Origin: an uncultured Desulfobulbaceae bacterium
Lineage (GTDB): Bacteria > Desulfobacterota > Desulfobulbia > Desulfobulbales > CALZHT01
Direction of reading: 5' to 3'
DNA: 32,913 bases
Assembly: GCA_945787445.1 (NCBI GenBank)
Contig: CALZHT010000035.1
Location: 1-32,913 of the forward strand
Part shown: positions 12,142 to 24,516 of the stretch, piece after piece
Position numbering within the stretch: position 1 is the stretch's first letter
Layout of the letters: every line of letters starts with the position of its first letter
Program-made: the position numbers and the translations under genes
Notes under the pieces: generated by a model
Seen by the model: the letters and a program-made list of their open reading frames with translations, nothing else
Databases searched by the model: none
What the model was told of the DNA's origin: nothing

Positions 12142-12164
12142 AAAAAGTGAAAAGTTTGTATAGT
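12142..12164 (+). promoter_or_regulatory. Possible promoter of the cysK-cysS fusion gene
   Basis: A -10-like TATAGT lies at 12159-12164, with a weak -35-like TGACGA (12137-12142) 16 bases upstream, right after the dsr terminator. If real, transcription begins downstream of the GTG at 12163 and therefore favours the ATG at 12214 as the start. Confidence 0.35.
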
Positions 12165-12213
12165 GTCAAGTCTGATAACTTGTGGAAAAAAAACGGAATT
12201 TGAGTCTATTGGC

Positions 12214-14550
12214 ATGTCATACAACAACATCCTTGAAAAAATCGGCAATACGCCGCTTGTAAAAATATCAAGGCTTAATCCTTTTAAAAAGATAGCTCTA
12301 TATGCCAAGCTTGAGTCTTTTAATCCAGGAGGGTCGGTTAAGGACAGGATTGCTCTTTCCATGGTTGAAATAGCCGAAAAAAGTGGAGAGTTGACCCCCG
12401 ACAAAATAGTTCTTGAAGCGACAAGCGGCAATACCGGCATCGGCCTGGCCATGGTCTGTGCTGTGAAAGGATACAACTGCCAGCTCGTTATGCCCGAATC
12501 CGCCAGTATCGAAAGACGAAAGATCATGACCGCCTATGGCGCTGAAATTCTTCTGACACCCGCCAAGAAAAGTACTGATGGAGCTATCGAGCAGGCTTAT
12601 GCCATGGCGCGTGAACATCCGGACCGCTATTTTCTGACGGATCAATTTAACAACGAAGCGAATTGGCTGGCGCATTATAATCACACCGGGCCGGAAATCT
12701 GGGAACAAACAGGAGGAAGCGTTACAGACGTTGTTGCAACACTGGGCACCACCGGTACAGCAATGGGTTTGTGTAAATATTTTGCGGAAAATCATCCTGA
12801 AGTACGAGTGAGTGCCATGGAGCCCTTCTATAAACACAAAATTCAAGGGCTCAAAAATATGAAGGAATCATACAAGCCGGGCATTTTTGATAAAAAACTG
12901 CCCTTTCAAATCATTAATGTTCCGGATGAAGAGGCTTTTGAAAAAGCCAGAATGCTGGCAGGGAAAGAAGGCTTGTTTGTGGGGATGAGTTCCGGTGCTG
13001 CTTTGTGTGCTGCTCTCGCACGAGCCGAGCAGATGAAAGAAGGTGTTCTTGTCGTTATTTTTCCTGACGGGGGTGAAAAATATCTCAGCACCCCCCTGTT
13101 TGCCCGGGAGGAGCGATCTGAGCCCAAGGTTTCACAGTTGCGGTTTCATAATACATTGACAAGGCGTAAAGAGATTTTTAAACCGCTTGATGGGAAGAAA
13201 GTTACTTTCTATGCTTGTGGTCCTACAGCTCATGAAAAGGCCAACATTGGCCATTGTCGCCGATTCATCCTCGCTGATATCATCCACCGACTGCTGAGTA
13301 GCAAAGGATACGATGTTCAGTATTGCATGAATTTCACCGATCTTGATGATAATACTTTACATGGTTCCGCGCTAGCTGGTGAGACACTTGCCGAGTTTAC
13401 CGGAAAATATATTGATGATTTTAAGCGTGATATTGCTTTGTTGGGTGTCAAAGAGGCGACATGTTACCCTAAGGCATCAAGTCATGTTAATTCTATGATT
13501 GATGTTGCTGCAAAACTACTCAGCAAAGGATTTGCCTATGAAAAACATGGTTCCATCTATTTTGATATTTCCAAGTATGCAAATTACGGTCGCCTATCAA
13601 GGGTTGATTTAAGCAAGATCCAATTTGGCAAGACAGTTGATCTAGATGATTATGAAAAGGACAGCCCTGTTGATTTCACCTTACTTAAACGTTCAACCTT
13701 GGGTGAATTGAAAAAAGGGGTATTTTTTGAAACGGAATGGGGAAATGTGCGTCCTGGATGGCATATTGAATGTGCTGCCATGGTACATCATTATCTTGGC
13801 GAGACCATTGATATTCATACAAGTGGTCGTGATTTGATATTTCCACACCATGAAAACGAAATTGCAATATCCGAAGCCCTGACCGGCAAAAAACTCGCCA
13901 ACTATTGGGTTCACAGCGAGCTTGTTCTGGTTGACGGCAAGAAGATGTCGCGGGAACTCAATACATTGGTCACTCTGGAGGATATCTTGAAAAAAGGCTA
14001 TTCTCCTAGGGAAGTGCGTTTCTTTTTTCTGCAAACCCATTATCGAAAACCGATTGATTTTTCCTGCAAGCGGCTTGATGCAGCACGAAAAACCCTGAAG
14101 CGGCTTGATGAGTTTACCCGCAAGCTGCTCTGTCTTCCAGCTGGGTTACCACATCCCAAGGTGGCATCCTATCTTTCCGACATGGAAGAACGTTTTTTTG
14201 CGGCCATGGATGATGATCTCAATATCTCCAAGGCATTGGCAGCGATTTTTGATTTTATTAAGAAAGTCAATCCCATCCTTTATGAAGGAAAGCTGGACCG
14301 TGATCAGAAAAAATATATTATTGAGACTTTGGAACGGTTCAATGGACTCTTGAATGTTTTGAAACTCGAAGAATGCCCCTTGACCCCGGAAATCGATAAA
14401 TTGATTCAGGAAAGGGAAGAAGCGCGGAAGAAAAAGGATTGGAAAAAAGCGGATGGCGTGCGGGAAGAGCTTACCAAACATGGTATAAAAGTAGTCGATA
14501 GTGCCAAGGGCCCAGTTTGGAAGGAGATTAAGAAAAAGAAAGAAAAATGA
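12214..14550 (+). CDS. cysK-cysS: Bifunctional cysteine synthase / cysteinyl-tRNA synthetase fusion
   Basis: 778 residues in one uninterrupted frame. Residues 1-300 are cysteine synthase: N-terminal ILEKIGNTPLV, PLP lysine K43 in NPGGSVKDR, SGNTG at 71-75, a GTTGTAMG phosphate loop and SSGAALCAA. It should make cysteine from O-acetylserine (or a related ester) and sulfide. Residues about 304-778 are class I cysteinyl-tRNA synthetase: zinc ligands C335, C520, H545 and E549 are present, plus FTDLDDNTL and the C-terminal helical domain. Two signatures are altered: HIGH reads NIGH (344-347) and KMSKS reads KMSRE (577-581). The start was chosen because the family begins near MSYNNILEKIGNTP; a GTG at 12163 adds 17 residues. 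The terminator before it makes it a separate unit from dsr, and a tRNA gene follows. Inference: sulfide produced by the Dsr pathway supplies the synthase half. Confidence 0.93.
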   Translation: MSYNNILEKIGNTPLVKISRLNPFKKIALYAKLESFNPGGSVKDRIALSMVEIAEKSGELTPDKIVLEATSGNTGIGLAMVCAVKGYNCQLVMPESASIERRKIMTAYGAEILLTPAKKSTDGAIEQAYAMAREHPDRYFLTDQFNNEANWLAHYNHTGPEIWEQTGGSVTDVVATLGTTGTAMGLCKYFAENHPEVRVSAMEPFYKHKIQGLKNMKESYKPGIFDKKLPFQIINVPDEEAFEKARMLAGKEGLFVGMSSGAALCAALARAEQMKEGVLVVIFPDGGEKYLSTPLFAREERSEPKVSQLRFHNTLTRRKEIFKPLDGKKVTFYACGPTAHEKANIGHCRRFILADIIHRLLSSKGYDVQYCMNFTDLDDNTLHGSALAGETLAEFTGKYIDDFKRDIALLGVKEATCYPKASSHVNSMIDVAAKLLSKGFAYEKHGSIYFDISKYANYGRLSRVDLSKIQFGKTVDLDDYEKDSPVDFTLLKRSTLGELKKGVFFETEWGNVRPGWHIECAAMVHHYLGETIDIHTSGRDLIFPHHENEIAISEALTGKKLANYWVHSELVLVDGKKMSRELNTLVTLEDILKKGYSPREVRFFFLQTHYRKPIDFSCKRLDAARKTLKRLDEFTRKLLCLPAGLPHPKVASYLSDMEERFFAAMDDDLNISKALAAIFDFIKKVNPILYEGKLDRDQKKYIIETLERFNGLLNVLKLEECPLTPEIDKLIQEREEARKKKDWKKADGVREELTKHGIKVVDSAKGPVWKEIKKKKEK

Positions 14551-18974: not shown

Positions 18975-19736
18975 AATGAAGTAATTCGTAAGTACCTATT
19001 TTAACTAAGATAGCGAGATCAATATATATGAAAGATCCAATTTGCAATCATAAGAAACAATCAAACGTAAGTATTATATATCGAAATTTTTTTTAAGTAT
19101 CTTTTATGATTTGGATACAAAAGTCCGGCAACTATCTATATATTTCTTGTTCGACGGAGATGGAATATCATTCAAATGAGGATAAGAGCTTGTATGATAC
19201 ACCTCTCACGTTAATCTATATTCATTGTCATACTTGGCATGAGGTTTTAATGCAATGTAAACATACCTCTTAAATAATGGTTCCTGGGGATAATGACGTA
19301 AAACCTGGATTGAAACAACGTTTTTATGCTTAAAAAATCATGATACCTGGTAAATTCTTATCATTTCGCAGATTACTATCTTTTAATCTCAAAACTGAAC
19401 AGAGAACCGTGGGGAATACTTATTCGTCCTCGATTGTTTTAATTCAACACCATATACATCCAAATAATGTCAAAAGAAAAATCCTGCCGCTAGCCATGTA
19501 GCTTCGCTCCAGGAGCCAAACGAATACCCAACTATATTTGATTATATTGATTTAACGGGAAATAAAAAATAAAATTTGAATAATTTTGAAATGGCGAGAA
19601 ATTTTTTTAAAGGATATTTTTTTGATTAGCTTAAGGGAAGGAATGATCAGTTTGGAGAGACAGCCCGATTTTAGGGTTGGGAAATTAATGTGCCATAAAA
19701 GGTAGGGAATAAATCATTCTCTGTAAAAAAAGAAAA
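18975..19736. other. Long non-coding gap between glrR and the curli-like cluster
   Basis: About 760 AT-rich bases without a convincing ORF on either strand. It should hold the glrR promoter. I found no riboswitch landmarks and no correctly spaced sigma-54 site (a TTGGCATG at about 19227 has the wrong spacing). A conserved small RNA cannot be excluded by eye. Confidence 0.5.
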
Positions 19737-19758
19737 GGGACGGCTTGGTTGCCGACCC
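19726..19758 (-). terminator. Rho-independent terminator of the curli-like cluster
   Basis: On the minus strand GGGTCGGC-AACCAA-GCCGTCCC forms an 8-bp stem with one T-T mismatch (19758-19737), followed by TTTTCTTTTTTT. It lies 65 bases past the stop of the last cluster gene. Confidence 0.88.
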
Positions 19759-19822
19759 CATCTTTCTTTATCAGAGAGCAAAAAATTGTAAAACAATTAC
19801 TGGTTGTATACATCAACCTCTC

Positions 19823-20674
19823 TTACTTGACCGGAAGGTCAATGCTTTTTTGCTGAATAGCTCCGATGGTCTGCTCTTCAGGGATTACTTCGATTACAGT
19901 TTCATCAGTGTTTTGGATTTCATTTTTACTGACTGTTTTGTTTGCCCGAGCTTCTTTGAAGTCATCGTCCTGGGCGCCAAGTCCTTCAACTTCAAGGACA
20001 TCACCTTCATAGAGTATTCTCTCGCCCAAAACGTTTGAAACCTCGCCGACATTAAGGGACATTTTAACATGGGCATCGCCATATTCATCCCAAAAGTATT
20101 CCGTTACATTGGCGAGATAGATTGTGGCCATTACCTTTGTTTTAATGACGTCTGATTTCAGGATGTAATTTTCAACGGTTGTCTGGCTCTCTAAAGTAAA
20201 GCCAATTATTCGTTCTATAAGCTGTTTATAGGCATCAAGCTCAGCGACGCGGAGGGCCTGGATAGGACCGGCATTGGCTTGGGTTGAGGTGGCAAAGCCA
20301 ACCCGCTTGTACGTTTGATTGCCCAACTCCACGGTATCGCCGTCAATATTGGTAATGCTCTCAAGGGTTACAGAAGCGATGACTTTGGCTATATCTTTTT
20401 CGCGGTCATAAACCACTTCATCATAGACAATACCATGGAGGCTTGCCTGGGTTTTTGATTCTATGCTTCCGACAAAGTTTGCAGCGACGACGTCAACAAC
20501 TTTTTCGCTGGTCTTGACCTTCAAGCCGTGTACTGTTTCTACCAAGGCCCTTTTGGCAACAACCTTTGCCGCCGAGATGGTCATCATCCGTTTATTGCCG
20601 GCCCAGCAGTAAGAGCTGGCAAGAAATAAACTGATCAGAATAAGAGAAATTGTTTTTAGCGTTCTGAGGTTCAT
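19823..20674 (-). CDS. Exported LPP20/FlgT-N-like protein of the curli-like cluster
   Basis: 283 residues with a cleavable signal peptide (hydrophobic 7-20, SSYCWA then GN). The mature part has the pattern of LPP20/FlgT N-terminal domains: a helix AAKVVAKRALVETVHGLKV, strands with VVYDREKDIAKVIASVTLE, then a second helix RVAELDAYKQLIERIIGF and a strand-rich segment ending HVKMSLNVGEV. The C-terminal 60 residues are acidic and unstructured. Such proteins often neighbour CsgG-family genes and are thought to help outer-membrane assemblies; the role here is inferred. It starts 107 bases after the CsgG-like gene, with AGAGG before the ATG, and is followed by the cluster terminator. Confidence 0.65.
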   Translation of the reverse strand: MNLRTLKTISLILISLFLASSYCWAGNKRMMTISAAKVVAKRALVETVHGLKVKTSEKVVDVVAANFVGSIESKTQASLHGIVYDEVVYDREKDIAKVIASVTLESITNIDGDTVELGNQTYKRVGFATSTQANAGPIQALRVAELDAYKQLIERIIGFTLESQTTVENYILKSDVIKTKVMATIYLANVTEYFWDEYGDAHVKMSLNVGEVSNVLGERILYEGDVLEVEGLGAQDDDFKEARANKTVSKNEIQNTDETVIEVIPEEQTIGAIQQKSIDLPVK

Positions 20675-20781
20675 GGGTTTGCCTCTTGAATATCTTAATG
20701 GTTAGTAATGGGTTGACTTTTTTTTACAGACTTCGTATCTGCCTTTTATTTATCTACTGCGGACAAAGGTAAAAGCCCATT

Positions 20782-22119
20782 CTACCAATCACTTTCACTT
20801 AAAATCCTGCCACCGCCGAAGGTACGGACCCGCGGTTTAACTCTCCTTTCCGGCTCACTTGCAGCAACCTCCTCTTCAGCAGCTTCTTGAGGGGCTGCAA
20901 CAGGTTCTTCTGCCGGAGCACTTACAACTGTTGCCTGCATTTCGACAGGAGTCTGTTCCTCTACAACGGCTGTTTGTTCCGCTTGGATGCTTTCTATGAA
21001 TTTGGCAATTTTGGTGCGTTCGCCGAGGGTTTCATCAGTGATAGGGACTGATATGTACAGATTGAGATAGGTATCCTTATCAATAGATGAGCTATCAGCC
21101 TGGAAGTTACTGTCAAATTGTTGTAATGCTGCCACGGTATCAGAATCTAGCTCACCATTTAATGGAGCTTGGTAGCCGTGTAACCTTAAAAGTTCTTGAG
21201 TTCGCACGATTTTTTCCGGTTCAGAGAGGCTGTAATAGTAAGATGTTACTGCTCCAATAATTACAGGATCCTCTTGAGCGCCCGGAATCAAATTCCAATA
21301 CGGCAGAGCAAGATATTTGCTGACGATTTGGATAACGCTTAGCTCAACCAAGAGCCGCACCGCAGCATGCCGTCCCTGAACTTTTTTTACAGTTCCCTTC
21401 AAACCAATGGTAGGACCAAGCAAAGAGAAGCCTATGCTTTCTTGTCTGGTTGCCTTGTCAACCTTAATACTGTTAACAGCCTGCATTCTGGCAATACCGC
21501 TCAGGGTTTGAAAATCTATCAGGTTAAAATCCAGTGTGATTCTGGAGAGTGCTGTTTTTGCTCCTGCACCTGTTTCCAAGGAAATTTTATCTGAAGGAAC
21601 CCATTTTGGAAGACCGCTGACAGAAGCTTCTGCATCAAAATCAGTGTTTTTTCCCCGTGTTTCAAGCCCCCGGTCAAATTCAGTAATAGCTCCGGTCATT
21701 ACAACATCTGGGATTATCTTGTTCTCAAAGGTTGAATAACCGGTCGCATATGTATTCTGAAAGAAAGCAGGATCATATGGAATATAAACAACGTTTCCCC
21801 CAACAGCATTCAGAGTACTTTTAACCATTTCGGTAATATCTCTTGGAATTTCTCCACTAGTAAAGGCCGAGGTCCCCGTCACATCCCCAACATCCTTTGC
21901 CATTATATTCAGGGCCACTGTGTTATAAATCTGTGTCATCTTCCCCAAATCGAGAATTGCCTGGGAAAAAGAAGTTACTTTATTCTCCGGTGCTACTTCC
22001 CTAAGAGAAACATCAACTTTATGAGGATTACCGCACGAAACAAGAAACTGCAAAAGTAGTGATGCAACTAAAATGCTTCGCAGACGTTTATACATATTTA
22101 CCTTAGATGGAACTTTCAT
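20782..22119 (-). CDS. CsgG/HfaB-like outer-membrane secretion lipoprotein with peptidoglycan-binding domain
   Basis: 445 residues. A lipobox FLVSC29 marks a lipoprotein. Residues about 50-285 follow the CsgG fold: an N-terminal helix-strand segment (MAKDVGDVTG...EMVKSTLNAVGG), IIPDVVMTGAITEFD, a channel-loop region, ALSRITLDFNLIDFQTLSG, and GRHAAVRLLVELSVIQIVSKY near the end. Residues about 295-355 look like a PG_binding_1 domain (VRTQELLRLHGY, then LDSDTVAALQQFDSNF). The last 95 are Glu/Ala/Pro-rich. CsgG forms the nonameric curli export channel and HfaB is its holdfast-anchor relative; a fused wall-binding domain would fix the channel to peptidoglycan. A second start (22095) also has a good ribosome site. 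Position behind two exported small or repeat proteins supports an export role. Confidence 0.78.
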   Translation of the reverse strand: MKVPSKVNMYKRLRSILVASLLLQFLVSCGNPHKVDVSLREVAPENKVTSFSQAILDLGKMTQIYNTVALNIMAKDVGDVTGTSAFTSGEIPRDITEMVKSTLNAVGGNVVYIPYDPAFFQNTYATGYSTFENKIIPDVVMTGAITEFDRGLETRGKNTDFDAEASVSGLPKWVPSDKISLETGAGAKTALSRITLDFNLIDFQTLSGIARMQAVNSIKVDKATRQESIGFSLLGPTIGLKGTVKKVQGRHAAVRLLVELSVIQIVSKYLALPYWNLIPGAQEDPVIIGAVTSYYYSLSEPEKIVRTQELLRLHGYQAPLNGELDSDTVAALQQFDSNFQADSSSIDKDTYLNLYISVPITDETLGERTKIAKFIESIQAEQTAVVEEQTPVEMQATVVSAPAEEPVAAPQEAAEEEVAASEPERRVKPRVRTFGGGRILSESDW

Positions 22120-22145
22120 GACGCTCGCCTTTGTTTAGCGTTAAA

Positions 22146-22520
22146 TTATTTTTTTATGTTTGTAGCATTAATATCGCTATCTTTTATAACGATATATATG
22201 TCACCTTTGTGCTTGGCGCCGGCTCCAATATTAACGCCGCCAACATTTACACCGCCACCATCGCCTCCGGAACCTTCATTGACACTATCATGACCAGAAA
22301 CGCCCATCTCGTCCTTTATTTTCTTGGCACCTGCAGAAGCGCGCGCCTGAACCTTTTGTGATATAAACTTTGTATTTTCATTCATTTTGATACTGTCGTA
22401 TCCACTGACATTGTCATCAATGGCAATACCGTCATCCAGGTCGTTTCCCCAACTGTTTTCATAAGCTATGAGGGGAGTGATGGTCAACCATGTTACGATT
22501 AGAAACCATTTGGTATACAT
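22146..22520 (-). CDS. Small exported partner of the repeat protein (candidate minor subunit)
   Basis: 124 residues from ATG 22520, chosen because GGAGGGAGAA stands directly in front. The N-terminus is a signal peptide (about 1-16), followed by a polar mature part rich in Gly, Asn and Asp. The last 45 residues are glycine-rich and then read VNIGAGAKHKGDIYIVIKD and SDINATNIK. This resembles the IG.M.IKNSNVSGK stretch of the large repeat protein next door, so it could play a CsgB-like nucleating or capping role. I do not recognise a named family. It lies 26 bases before the CsgG-like gene and 131 bases after the repeat gene, with a hairpin in between. Confidence 0.7.
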   Translation of the reverse strand: MYTKWFLIVTWLTITPLIAYENSWGNDLDDGIAIDDNVSGYDSIKMNENTKFISQKVQARASAGAKKIKDEMGVSGHDSVNEGSGGDGGGVNVGGVNIGAGAKHKGDIYIVIKDSDINATNIKK

Positions 22521-22585
22521 TTCTCCCTCCTTCAAGATTCAGCCAATGTTGTTTTTTTATAAATTTTCTATTTAGGGGCTGGTGG

Positions 22586-22622
22586 CCCATAAGGCTGTAG
22601 CTTATGCCTACAGCCTTATGGG
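22586..22622 (-). terminator. 15-bp perfect hairpin between repeat-protein and partner genes
   Basis: CCCATAAGGCTGTAG and its exact complement enclose a seven-base loop (22601-22607), 30 bases beyond the repeat-protein stop. There is no T-run, so it may act as a leaky attenuator or 3'-end stabiliser that sets a high ratio of repeat protein to downstream products. Confidence 0.65.
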
Positions 22623-22651
22623 CAGAGATGGCTTGATTATTTAGTCATCTA

Positions 22652-23692
22652 CTATTCAACCTTAACCCCGCCGATTGTTGACTCAGCACCGAGTCCCAGA
22701 GCGGTAGCCTTTGATCTGTTTGCATCAACATTCTGCTTGATATCGCCAGATACATTAGAGTTCTTAATTTCCATTGAACCGATTTTTGCTTCAGCACCGA
22801 GTCCCAGAGCAGTTGCTTTTGACCTGTTGGCCTTGACATTCTGGCTCACTTTACCGGATACATTGGAGTTCTTGATACTCATGTCACCAATGGCAGCTTC
22901 AGCACCGAGTCCCAGAGCAGTTGCCTTTGACCTGTTAGCCTTGACATTTTGTTTTACTTTACCGGATACATTGGAATTCTTGATATCCATGGCGCCGATC
23001 TTGGCTTCAGCACCGAGTCCCAGAGCAGTTGCTTTTGACCTGTTGGCCTTGACATTTTGGCTCACTTTGCCTGATACATTGGAATCCTTGATATCCATGG
23101 CGCCTATCTTGGCTTCAGCACCGAGTCCGAGCGCCGTTGCTTTTGACCTGTTGGCCTTGACATTCTGGTCCACTTTACCTGAAATATTGGAATTCTTAAT
23201 GTTCATATCGCCAATGGCAGCCTCAGCACCGAGTCCAAGCGCAGTTGCTTTTGACCTGTTAGCCTTGACATTTTGTTTTACTTTGCCGGATACATTGGAA
23301 TTTTTAATGTCCATTCCGCCGATTGTTGCCTCAGCACCGAGTCCGAGCGCAGTTGCTTTGGACCTGTTGGCCTTGACATTCTGTTTTACTTTGCCGGATA
23401 CATTGGAATCCTTAATTTCCATGCCGCCAATTGTTGCCTCTGCACCGAGTCCGAGCGCAGTTGCTTTGGACCTGTTGGCCTTGACATTTTGTTTTACTTT
23501 TCCTGATACATTGGAGTTTTTAATCTTCATAGCACCCACATTGGCCTCAGCGCCAAGGCCGAGAGCTGTGGCTTTGGTTCTGTTAGCCTTAACGCTCTGT
23601 TCCACTTTTCCTGATACATTGGATGCTGCAACGGCCAGACCGCTGCTCATCAAGAAGATACCTACTGTTGCTAATGTTACTAATTTTTTCAT
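22652..23692 (-). CDS. Exported protein of nine 36-residue repeats, candidate curli-like fibre subunit
   Basis: 346 residues: a clear signal peptide (1-23, ending GLAVAA) and then nine repeats (eight of 36 residues, the last of 35) with nothing else. The unit runs SNVSGKVKQNVKANRSKA followed by TALGLGAEA.IG.M.IKN; the block ANRSKATALGLGAEA is invariant in repeats 2-8. The first (EQSVKANRT) and last (SGDIKQNVDA) units differ most. The mature chain has no aromatic, Cys, Pro or His. Alternating polar/small residues suggest a beta-solenoid or amyloid. The unit has S-x4-Q-x4-N, close to but not the curlin S-x5-Q-x4-N-x5-Q pattern. AAGGAGG precedes the ATG. With a CsgG-like channel downstream, a secreted fibre subunit is the best guess; an antifreeze-like or S-layer-type solenoid is an alternative. 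Confidence 0.85.
   Translation of the reverse strand: MKKLVTLATVGIFLMSSGLAVAASNVSGKVEQSVKANRTKATALGLGAEANVGAMKIKNSNVSGKVKQNVKANRSKATALGLGAEATIGGMEIKDSNVSGKVKQNVKANRSKATALGLGAEATIGGMDIKNSNVSGKVKQNVKANRSKATALGLGAEAAIGDMNIKNSNISGKVDQNVKANRSKATALGLGAEAKIGAMDIKDSNVSGKVSQNVKANRSKATALGLGAEAKIGAMDIKNSNVSGKVKQNVKANRSKATALGLGAEAAIGDMSIKNSNVSGKVSQNVKANRSKATALGLGAEAKIGSMEIKNSNVSGDIKQNVDANRSKATALGLGAESTIGGVKVE
22655..23623. repeat. Tandem array of nine ~108-bp coding repeats
   Basis: The array encodes the 36-residue repeats. Copies share the protein sequence more strictly than the DNA: the LGLGAEA segment is written with CCCAGAGC or CCGAGCGC variants, so selection on the protein is acting besides copying between units. 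Copy number is likely to vary between strains. Confidence 0.93.
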
Positions 23693-23763
23693 GACCTTTC
23701 CCTCCTTAAGTTATTTGTTGCCAAATGTTTAACTACATTTGCCATTAAAAAACTGAGATTTCA

Positions 23764-24099: not shown

Positions 24100-24516
24100 T
24101 TATTTTTTGTTATTTCGTAACCGTCGTAATCCTGCCAAACCCACAAGACCAGTGCCGAAAAGTAACATGGTGGCTGGTTCAGGAACAGGCGCTCCTCCAG
24201 TGCTCTCTGTTCTATTATCAGTCCAGCTCTTTAAACCACCTAAAAAAATACCATCACCACCAAGCCATCCGTAATAATCATCATTATGTTCGGCATCAAC
24301 CATTGACGATCGTAAAGAATTCCATATGGGATAATTACTGCCGTATAAAAAATACTTAATGGTACTTCCTAATTCAGCCTCCTGGATATAAATTGACTCA
24401 CCAGCCGTCAAACCATCGAATGTTATTAATGTGCCATTCGCTTTTGGTGTCGCAAGGACCAGTAGAGCCACAAATGATCCAAGAAAAAGAACAGTTACCT
24501 TCGATGCTTTTCCCAT
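24100..24516 (-). CDS. PEP-CTERM sorting-signal protein
   Basis: 138 residues from ATG 24516 (GGGGTGAGG in front). There is an N-terminal signal peptide (about 8-27, ending PKANG), a short polar middle (LITFDGLTAGESIYIQEAEL) and a classic C-terminal PEP-CTERM tail: VPEPATMLLFGTGLVGLAG followed by a basic cluster. The tail is recognised by an exosortase, none of which is in this window, so the protein should be processed at the membrane and delivered to the surface or extracellular matrix. No catalytic motif is visible in the middle region. Flanking 140-base direct repeats suggest past duplication. Confidence 0.88.
   Translation of the reverse strand: MGKASKVTVLFLGSFVALLVLATPKANGTLITFDGLTAGESIYIQEAELGSTIKYFLYGSNYPIWNSLRSSMVDAEHNDDYYGWLGGDGIFLGGLKSWTDNRTESTGGAPVPEPATMLLFGTGLVGLAGLRRLRNNKK

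Follow-up and report, generated by a model that had tools for sequence, protein, structure and literature searches.

Curli, the products of csgBA and csgDEFG, polymerise as open-ended solenoids without caps, from curlin subunits whose repeat unit has 23 ± 5 residues (PMC10192328), and some alphaproteobacterial curli systems also do without CsgE and CsgF (PMC3521004). Other systems resemble them in part. In Caulobacter, HfaB is CsgG-like, and HfaA and HfaD sit outside without long fibres (PMC6707917), while FapC of Pseudomonas has one long repeat per beta-solenoid layer (PMC12392863). The FlgP protein of Campylobacter assembles, together with an HtrA-like protein, into concentric rings (PMC12222027). 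We describe here a gene cluster from an uncultured Desulfobulbaceae bacterium (GCA_945787445.1, 4.46 Mb in 227 contigs), located on contig CALZHT010000035.1, of which the whole stretch of 32,913 nucleotides (hereafter the window) was analyzed. In the list of open reading frames (ORFs), four genes for exported proteins span positions 23692-19823, all on the minus strand: a repeat protein, a small protein, a CsgG-like lipoprotein, and an LPP20-like protein, as the initial annotation of this DNA had described (Table 1). The cluster probably builds a surface fibre other than curli. That annotation had proposed a type VIII-like system that serves a repeat protein unlike curlin, and this is still the best-supported reading given the CsgG homology, the conserved gene order, and the lack of matches to CsgE, CsgF, or curlin. 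In the form we favour, with a probability of about 0.68, such a system uses a variant of CsgG to export a fibre of solenoids that stack by their ends.

The repeat gene has a 108-bp period (8.8 copies, 83% match in Tandem Repeats Finder, TRF), and the mature protein, counted after a cut between AVA and A, has 324 residues, i.e., nine units of 36 residues. The ORF, TRF, and unit analyses thus bear out the exported nine-repeat protein that had been seen in the sequence. The units of the window protein are 65-92% identical in DNA and differ pairwise by a mean of 11.2 synonymous versus 5.6 non-synonymous changes per 35 codons, so that selection has maintained the protein repeat, which is not merely the result of recent DNA copying. 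Five repeat proteins, from the window and its relatives, have 9, 7, 5, 4, and 2 units and mature lengths of 324, 252, 180, 144, and 72 residues, exactly n x 36 when counted from the probable cut by signal peptidase (AxA, or VMA in locus L004). None of the five contains Cys, Pro, or aromatic residues in its mature part, and the window protein has no QxGxxN curlin motif, in agreement with the earlier description of an aromatic-free, 36-residue repeat off the curlin consensus. G6, A21, and G23 are found in all 27 units compared, and A28 and G31 in 26 of them. The window protein carries a high positive net charge (+29). Structure prediction had been suggested as a check, and the AlphaFold2 (AF2) model is a continuous beta-solenoid with a predicted local distance difference test score (pLDDT) of 91 and a predicted template modelling score (pTM) of 0.88. 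In VIA, this model matched generic beta-helices, including autotransporter passengers; Pontibacter CsgA (8c50) is in the list at Z 17.1 but with a root-mean-square deviation of 8.6. The repeat profile had no match in PDB sequences. Because the length is an exact multiple of 36, the number of units is variable, caps, Cys, Pro, and aromatics are absent, and the model is a beta-solenoid, the protein looks like a fibre subunit, and we regard it as the candidate major one. By eye, more Asn/Gln-rich versions of the repeat, with periods of ~35-39, occur in Desulfobulbaceae loci and in L014. The Pfam matches of the window protein (G-patch_2 at E 5e-11, GLUG) look like artefacts of repetition or composition, its relatives matching other, unrelated families. 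A large antisense ORF over the gene (22737-23732) looks like a by-product of the repeat.

The order repeat gene, small gene, CsgG-like gene, together with the 36-residue unit, is also found in four other genomes; the initial annotation had let its proposal stand or fall with conservation of the gene order, which does recur. A profile made blindly from the nine window units alone matched three of 1,311 ORFs in 21 loci (in L004, L034, and L037), and each of these three lies directly upstream of the small and CsgG-like genes. A second profile round added L036, where a protein of seven units occupies the equivalent position and a second 36-residue-repeat protein is encoded at the opposite end of the cluster, behind the gene of an HtrA-like protease (L036:2548-3513, minus strand). 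The general order is repeat, small, CsgG-like, (GNK protein), FlgP-like, (GRYQ protein), (DUF2807), (HtrA-like); the genes in brackets are missing in some loci, the window among them. In all 17 close-family loci having that flank (window, L004-L010, L012-L015, L033, L034, L036, L037, and L053), the small gene comes immediately before the CsgG-like gene; 10 of these loci contributed to building the small-protein profile. The small gene was not detected in L038, L039, and L040, whose channel proteins are more divergent than the rest, and L003, L011, and L035 are cut off at this flank. Among 395 genomes of Desulfobacterota, the CsgG-like protein is found in nine and the repeat protein in six, all six within the nine. 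The repeat profile was built with the help of four of these six; in the case of the other two (G246 and G295, the latter with a Desulfobulbus-type cluster), the probability of co-occurrence by chance is ~5e-4 by hand calculation. Hence, the blind profile, the conserved order, and the co-occurrence link the repeat protein to the channel. Other phyla were sampled by the related-locus search only, and the spread beyond Desulfobacterota rests on contigs of metagenome-assembled genomes (MAGs), taken as binned (L003, L004, and L014).

The initial annotation had called the third protein a CsgG-like lipoprotein. The lipobox (LVSC) is present, its Cys29 is invariant in 12 aligned relatives, and placement in the outer membrane is predicted. 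At the cut-off, the Pfam CsgG model (PF03783) does not match the window protein, one of the 12 relatives reaching E 0.011, and direct PDB sequence searches with the protein, alone or as a profile, found no CsgG. The name CsgG-like therefore stands on profile-profile and fold evidence, which bears it out, but not on the family model. In hhalign, a profile of 18 relatives matched CsgG plus its homologues with a probability of 96.5% (P 9.7e-10) and E. coli CsgG alone with 85.4%, against 0.1-0.5% for CsgA, CsgB, CsgD, CsgE, CsgF, YcdX, and YcdY. The AF2 model has a mean pLDDT of 71; its best 25 Foldseek matches are all CsgG chains (E 1.4e-9), and in VIA it reaches Z 15.3 with CsgG versus 11.8 with the best other fold. 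The long strands predicted at residues 139-166, 178-202, 207-233, and 238-246 correspond to the barrel hairpins of CsgG, with tips of low confidence. Sequence profiles and predicted fold mark the channel as a clear, though remote, homologue of CsgG. The stretch between D.TG and the next (I/V)P has 8 residues in 15 of the 18 aligned relatives versus 13 in E. coli CsgG, where it holds the constriction residues Tyr, Asn, and Phe; the shortening might give a wider pore opening. Residues ~283-360 look like a peptidoglycan-binding domain (Pfam E 0.019 in the window protein; best PG_binding_1 E 3.3e-4 among relatives), and this tail matches AmpDh2 in VIA (Z 7.8, 23% identity over 73 residues).

The two remaining proteins had been described as a small exported Gly/Asn-rich protein and an LPP20-like protein, and both descriptions need revision. 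The small exported gene is there; what its family conserves in the alignment is the DLDDGI motif and a C-terminal GAG..GDI element, not Gly/Asn richness. Its ORF is listed as 22535-22146, and the ATG at 22520, directly 3' of GGAGG, is the likelier start. Searches in Pfam and elsewhere gave no match to anything known, and the protein is a candidate channel partner or nucleator. We considered and set aside the idea that it is a truncated repeat unit: a pattern SV..I..G...G.I shared by eye is suggestive only, the window protein scores against the repeat no better than shuffled sequences (80/200), only 4 of 13 members of the family reach ≤4/200 shuffles, and the comparison in hhalign has P 0.09. 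The fourth protein has FlgP/LPP20-type domain sequence, and its profile matches FlgP-type chains through both halves (best E 9.8e-6), while Pfam LPP20 reaches only E 0.045. It has two domains and no lipobox, and FlgP-like is the better name. Relatives that are 49-56% identical occupy the equivalent place, and we regard the protein as a candidate periplasmic ring or brace. HtrA-like proteins are encoded in the clusters of L034, L036, and L053, and a function shared with the FlgP/HtrA-like rings of Campylobacter is a matter of speculation.

The perfect stem-loop that follows the repeat gene has a folding energy (dG) of -39.8 versus -19.4 for shuffled sequences (z -6.9). A strong stem-loop is found 3' of the first repeat gene in all ten loci tested (window, L034, L004, L037, L008, L012, L013, L033, L014, and L040; z -2.7 to -6.9), with sequences mostly unrelated between loci; L036 has only 26 bp at this position. 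It is likely an mRNA end or an attenuation signal, and it may keep the mRNA of the subunit above that of the exporter. This presence in ten out of ten loci is the reason to think that the repeat gene is expressed as that of a major subunit. The strong terminator reported at the end of the cluster is credible: the minus strand reads GGGGTCGGCaaccaaGCCGTCCC then TTTTCTTTTTTT, and the region folds better than shuffles. No sigma-54 promoter was found near the repeat gene, with no excess over chance, and scans for sigma-70-type promoters and for simple terminators showed no enrichment. Just upstream of the repeat gene, a near-perfect inverted repeat, GCCAAATGT..ACATTTGCC (23720-23743), was noticed by eye and might be a regulator site.

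In the mechanism that we envisage, the repeat protein would cross the inner membrane by its signal peptide, be held unfolded in the periplasm, and exit through a ring of the CsgG-like lipoprotein. Outside, it would fold as an uncapped beta-solenoid, and end-to-end stacking of the subunits would give a surface fibre. A role like that of CsgF or CsgB at the channel may fall to the DLDDGI protein, the pore may be anchored or braced by its peptidoglycan-binding-like tail and by the FlgP-like protein, and the hairpin could let the cell make subunit in excess of exporter. Export through the pore, polymerisation, and an amyloid nature of the repeat protein are what we infer. Several points weigh against this scheme. 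The exactness of n x 36 hinges on the chosen signal-peptidase site, and alternative cut sites are present. The charge of the window protein is unusual for close stacking, and the repeats begin directly after the signal peptide, with no separate N-terminal export signal of the CsgA kind visible. The solenoid model has no significant Foldseek match, and AF2 models of near-identical repeats may be over-confident. Finally, in G246 the repeat also forms the end of a FecR-domain protein, encoded on a different contig, and may have other uses; the contig of this genome with the CsgG-like gene starts too near that gene to reveal a repeat gene upstream. A bolder version, which we put forward tentatively and think rather unlikely, is that the cluster belongs to a separate class of fibre machines beside curli and Fap, with uncapped n x 36 solenoids, a CsgG-type pore that is anchored to peptidoglycan and lacks the constriction loop of curli, the DLDDGI partner, and a FlgP-type periplasmic ring. 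In such a machine, what the pore grips or lets through may be an already folded solenoid, with no unfolded chain to be threaded.

The alternatives to an exported fibre differ in what they do with the repeat protein. It could form short oligomers that hold an exopolysaccharide or another layer to the outer membrane, i.e., a surface anchor as in Caulobacter HfaABD. The fibre-less placement of HfaA and HfaD by a CsgG-like protein (PMC6707917), repeat numbers that go down to two, and a net charge of +29, which would suit binding to an acidic polysaccharide, are all compatible with an anchor. However, the surroundings of the cluster in the window showed no recognisable polysaccharide genes, of the Hfs type or any other, and exact, whole-number, uncapped units and a hairpin better fit an abundant polymer; we consider an anchor improbable. 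It is still less probable that the repeat protein is not exported by this pore at all and stays in the periplasm or under the outer membrane, the CsgG-like and FlgP-like proteins forming a ring in the periplasm or outer membrane for another purpose. The channel is indeed divergent, with a shortened constriction-loop stretch; FlgP-type proteins and FlgT, which the channel model matches at Z 11.4 in VIA, belong to periplasmic rings, and several clusters encode HtrA-like proteins. Yet no fold matches the whole channel domain better than CsgG, four long strands of the barrel type are predicted, and the repeat gene is tied to the channel by order and co-occurrence.

That this is an ordinary curli system whose parts have diverged past recognition by family models seems very improbable. 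A CsgG homologue does adjoin an exported repeat protein, and the Asn-rich repeats of the Desulfobulbaceae versions look more curlin-like. Nevertheless, neither the curlin repeat (PF07012; X6QXGX2NX10) nor CsgE nor CsgF was matched in seven genomes, those of the window and six relatives, which upholds the earlier remark that the latter two have no homolog here. In hhalign, the repeat profile gave probabilities of 0.2% with CsgA and 0.9% with CsgB, and its unit has 36 residues as opposed to the 23 ± 5 of curlins (PMC10192328).

If the preferred reading of a type VIII-like system for a solenoid fibre is true, CsgG-type channels serve a family of repeat proteins that belongs to neither curli nor Hfa, in Desulfobacterota and, to judge from a single MAG, in Nitrospira. 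The cluster is apparently undescribed and conserved, and its subunits apparently form a new family of solenoid repeat proteins; no description was found in the literature searched, mostly open-access papers without preprints. Since the subunit is unusually simple (36-residue units in two to nine copies, without caps or linkers), the effects of length on solenoid assembly and export become directly testable, and the subunit might find use as a protein material. Conserved despite the absence of CsgE and CsgF, the small partner gives a way into the question of how cargo is selected by such channels.

Table 1. Features of the cluster in the window, in the direction of transcription
Feature	Position	Strand	Description	Basis
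Repeat protein gene	22652..23692	-	346 aa; signal peptide and nine 36-residue units	ORF, TRF, unit analysis, relatives, AF2
Perfect 16-bp stem-loop	22585..22623	-	between repeat gene and small gene	inverted repeat, folding vs shuffles
Small exported protein gene	22146..22520	-	DLDDGI motif, C-terminal GAG..GDI element	start by GGAGG-ATG, family alignment
CsgG-like lipoprotein gene	20782..22119	-	445 aa; C-terminal peptidoglycan-binding-like domain	hhalign, AF2, Foldseek, VIA
FlgP/LPP20-like exported protein gene	19823..20674	-	283 aa, two domains	profile matches to FlgP-type chains
Intrinsic terminator	~19724..19759	-	ends the cluster	sequence; region folds with z -4.3

Some related loci carry further components. 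In G246, the FecR-domain protein (L052:6966-7847) ends in two 36-residue repeats, with no CsgG-like gene on its contig, and is possibly a fibre-joining passenger or an anchor. Near the Nitrospira cluster, a second, different repeat protein with GAVTNVGIGQNTKANLASTNLEGS units is encoded on the other strand and cut by the end of the locus (L004:9751-10509, minus strand). In clusters of the Desulfobulbaceae type (L005-L013 and L033), which have two Asn-rich repeat proteins, the CsgG-like gene is further surrounded by genes for a GRYQ-type small protein, a VWA protein, an FHA-ABC transporter, a Ser/Thr kinase, and an FHA sigma-54 regulator. The divergent CsgG-like loci L039 and L040 (G154 and G180) have different small repeat proteins and ABC-transporter-like neighbours, and may represent a sister system. 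Elsewhere in the window, a short PEP-CTERM protein gene (24100-24516, minus strand; PF07589) lies upstream of the cluster with no evident link to it, and a single ORF of 795 residues (12163-14550, plus strand) reads, by eye, as a cysteine synthase fused to a cysteinyl-tRNA synthetase.

Among known systems, Pseudomonas Fap shares with the window protein a long repeat in which one repeat makes one beta-solenoid layer, as predicted here, whereas the window units abut without linkers. The repeat profile had no FapC-type match in PDB sequences and no FapF-type porin was seen, the Fap genes not having been searched directly. The basal disk of Campylobacter shares the FlgP-type domain sequence and, in the clusters of some relatives, an HtrA-like PDZ protein comparable to PflC of the disk (PMC12222027); unlike FlgP/LPP20, the FlgP-like protein of the window has two domains in one chain, lacks a lipobox, and is encoded away from flagellar genes. 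The likeness to curli is closer, since a CsgG-fold lipoprotein channel adjoins an exported repeat protein predicted as an open-ended solenoid, and a gene for a small exported partner lies beside the channel. The window system differs from curli in having no match to the curlin repeat, CsgE, or CsgF, a 36-residue unit with neither Gln ladder nor aromatics, a channel with a peptidoglycan-binding-like tail and 8 versus 13 residues in the constriction stretch, and an added FlgP-like protein. As far as sequences can tell, the cluster works like curli by anatomy and is not curli by test. In Caulobacter HfaABD, likened here by description and not by sequence, non-classical exported proteins likewise depend on a CsgG-like protein to reach the surface (PMC6707917); in contrast to it, the window has a regular 36-residue repeat, and holdfast genes were not recognised close by. 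Of the known cases in which surface placement of other proteins relies on a CsgG-like protein, HfaABD comes nearest to the present one.

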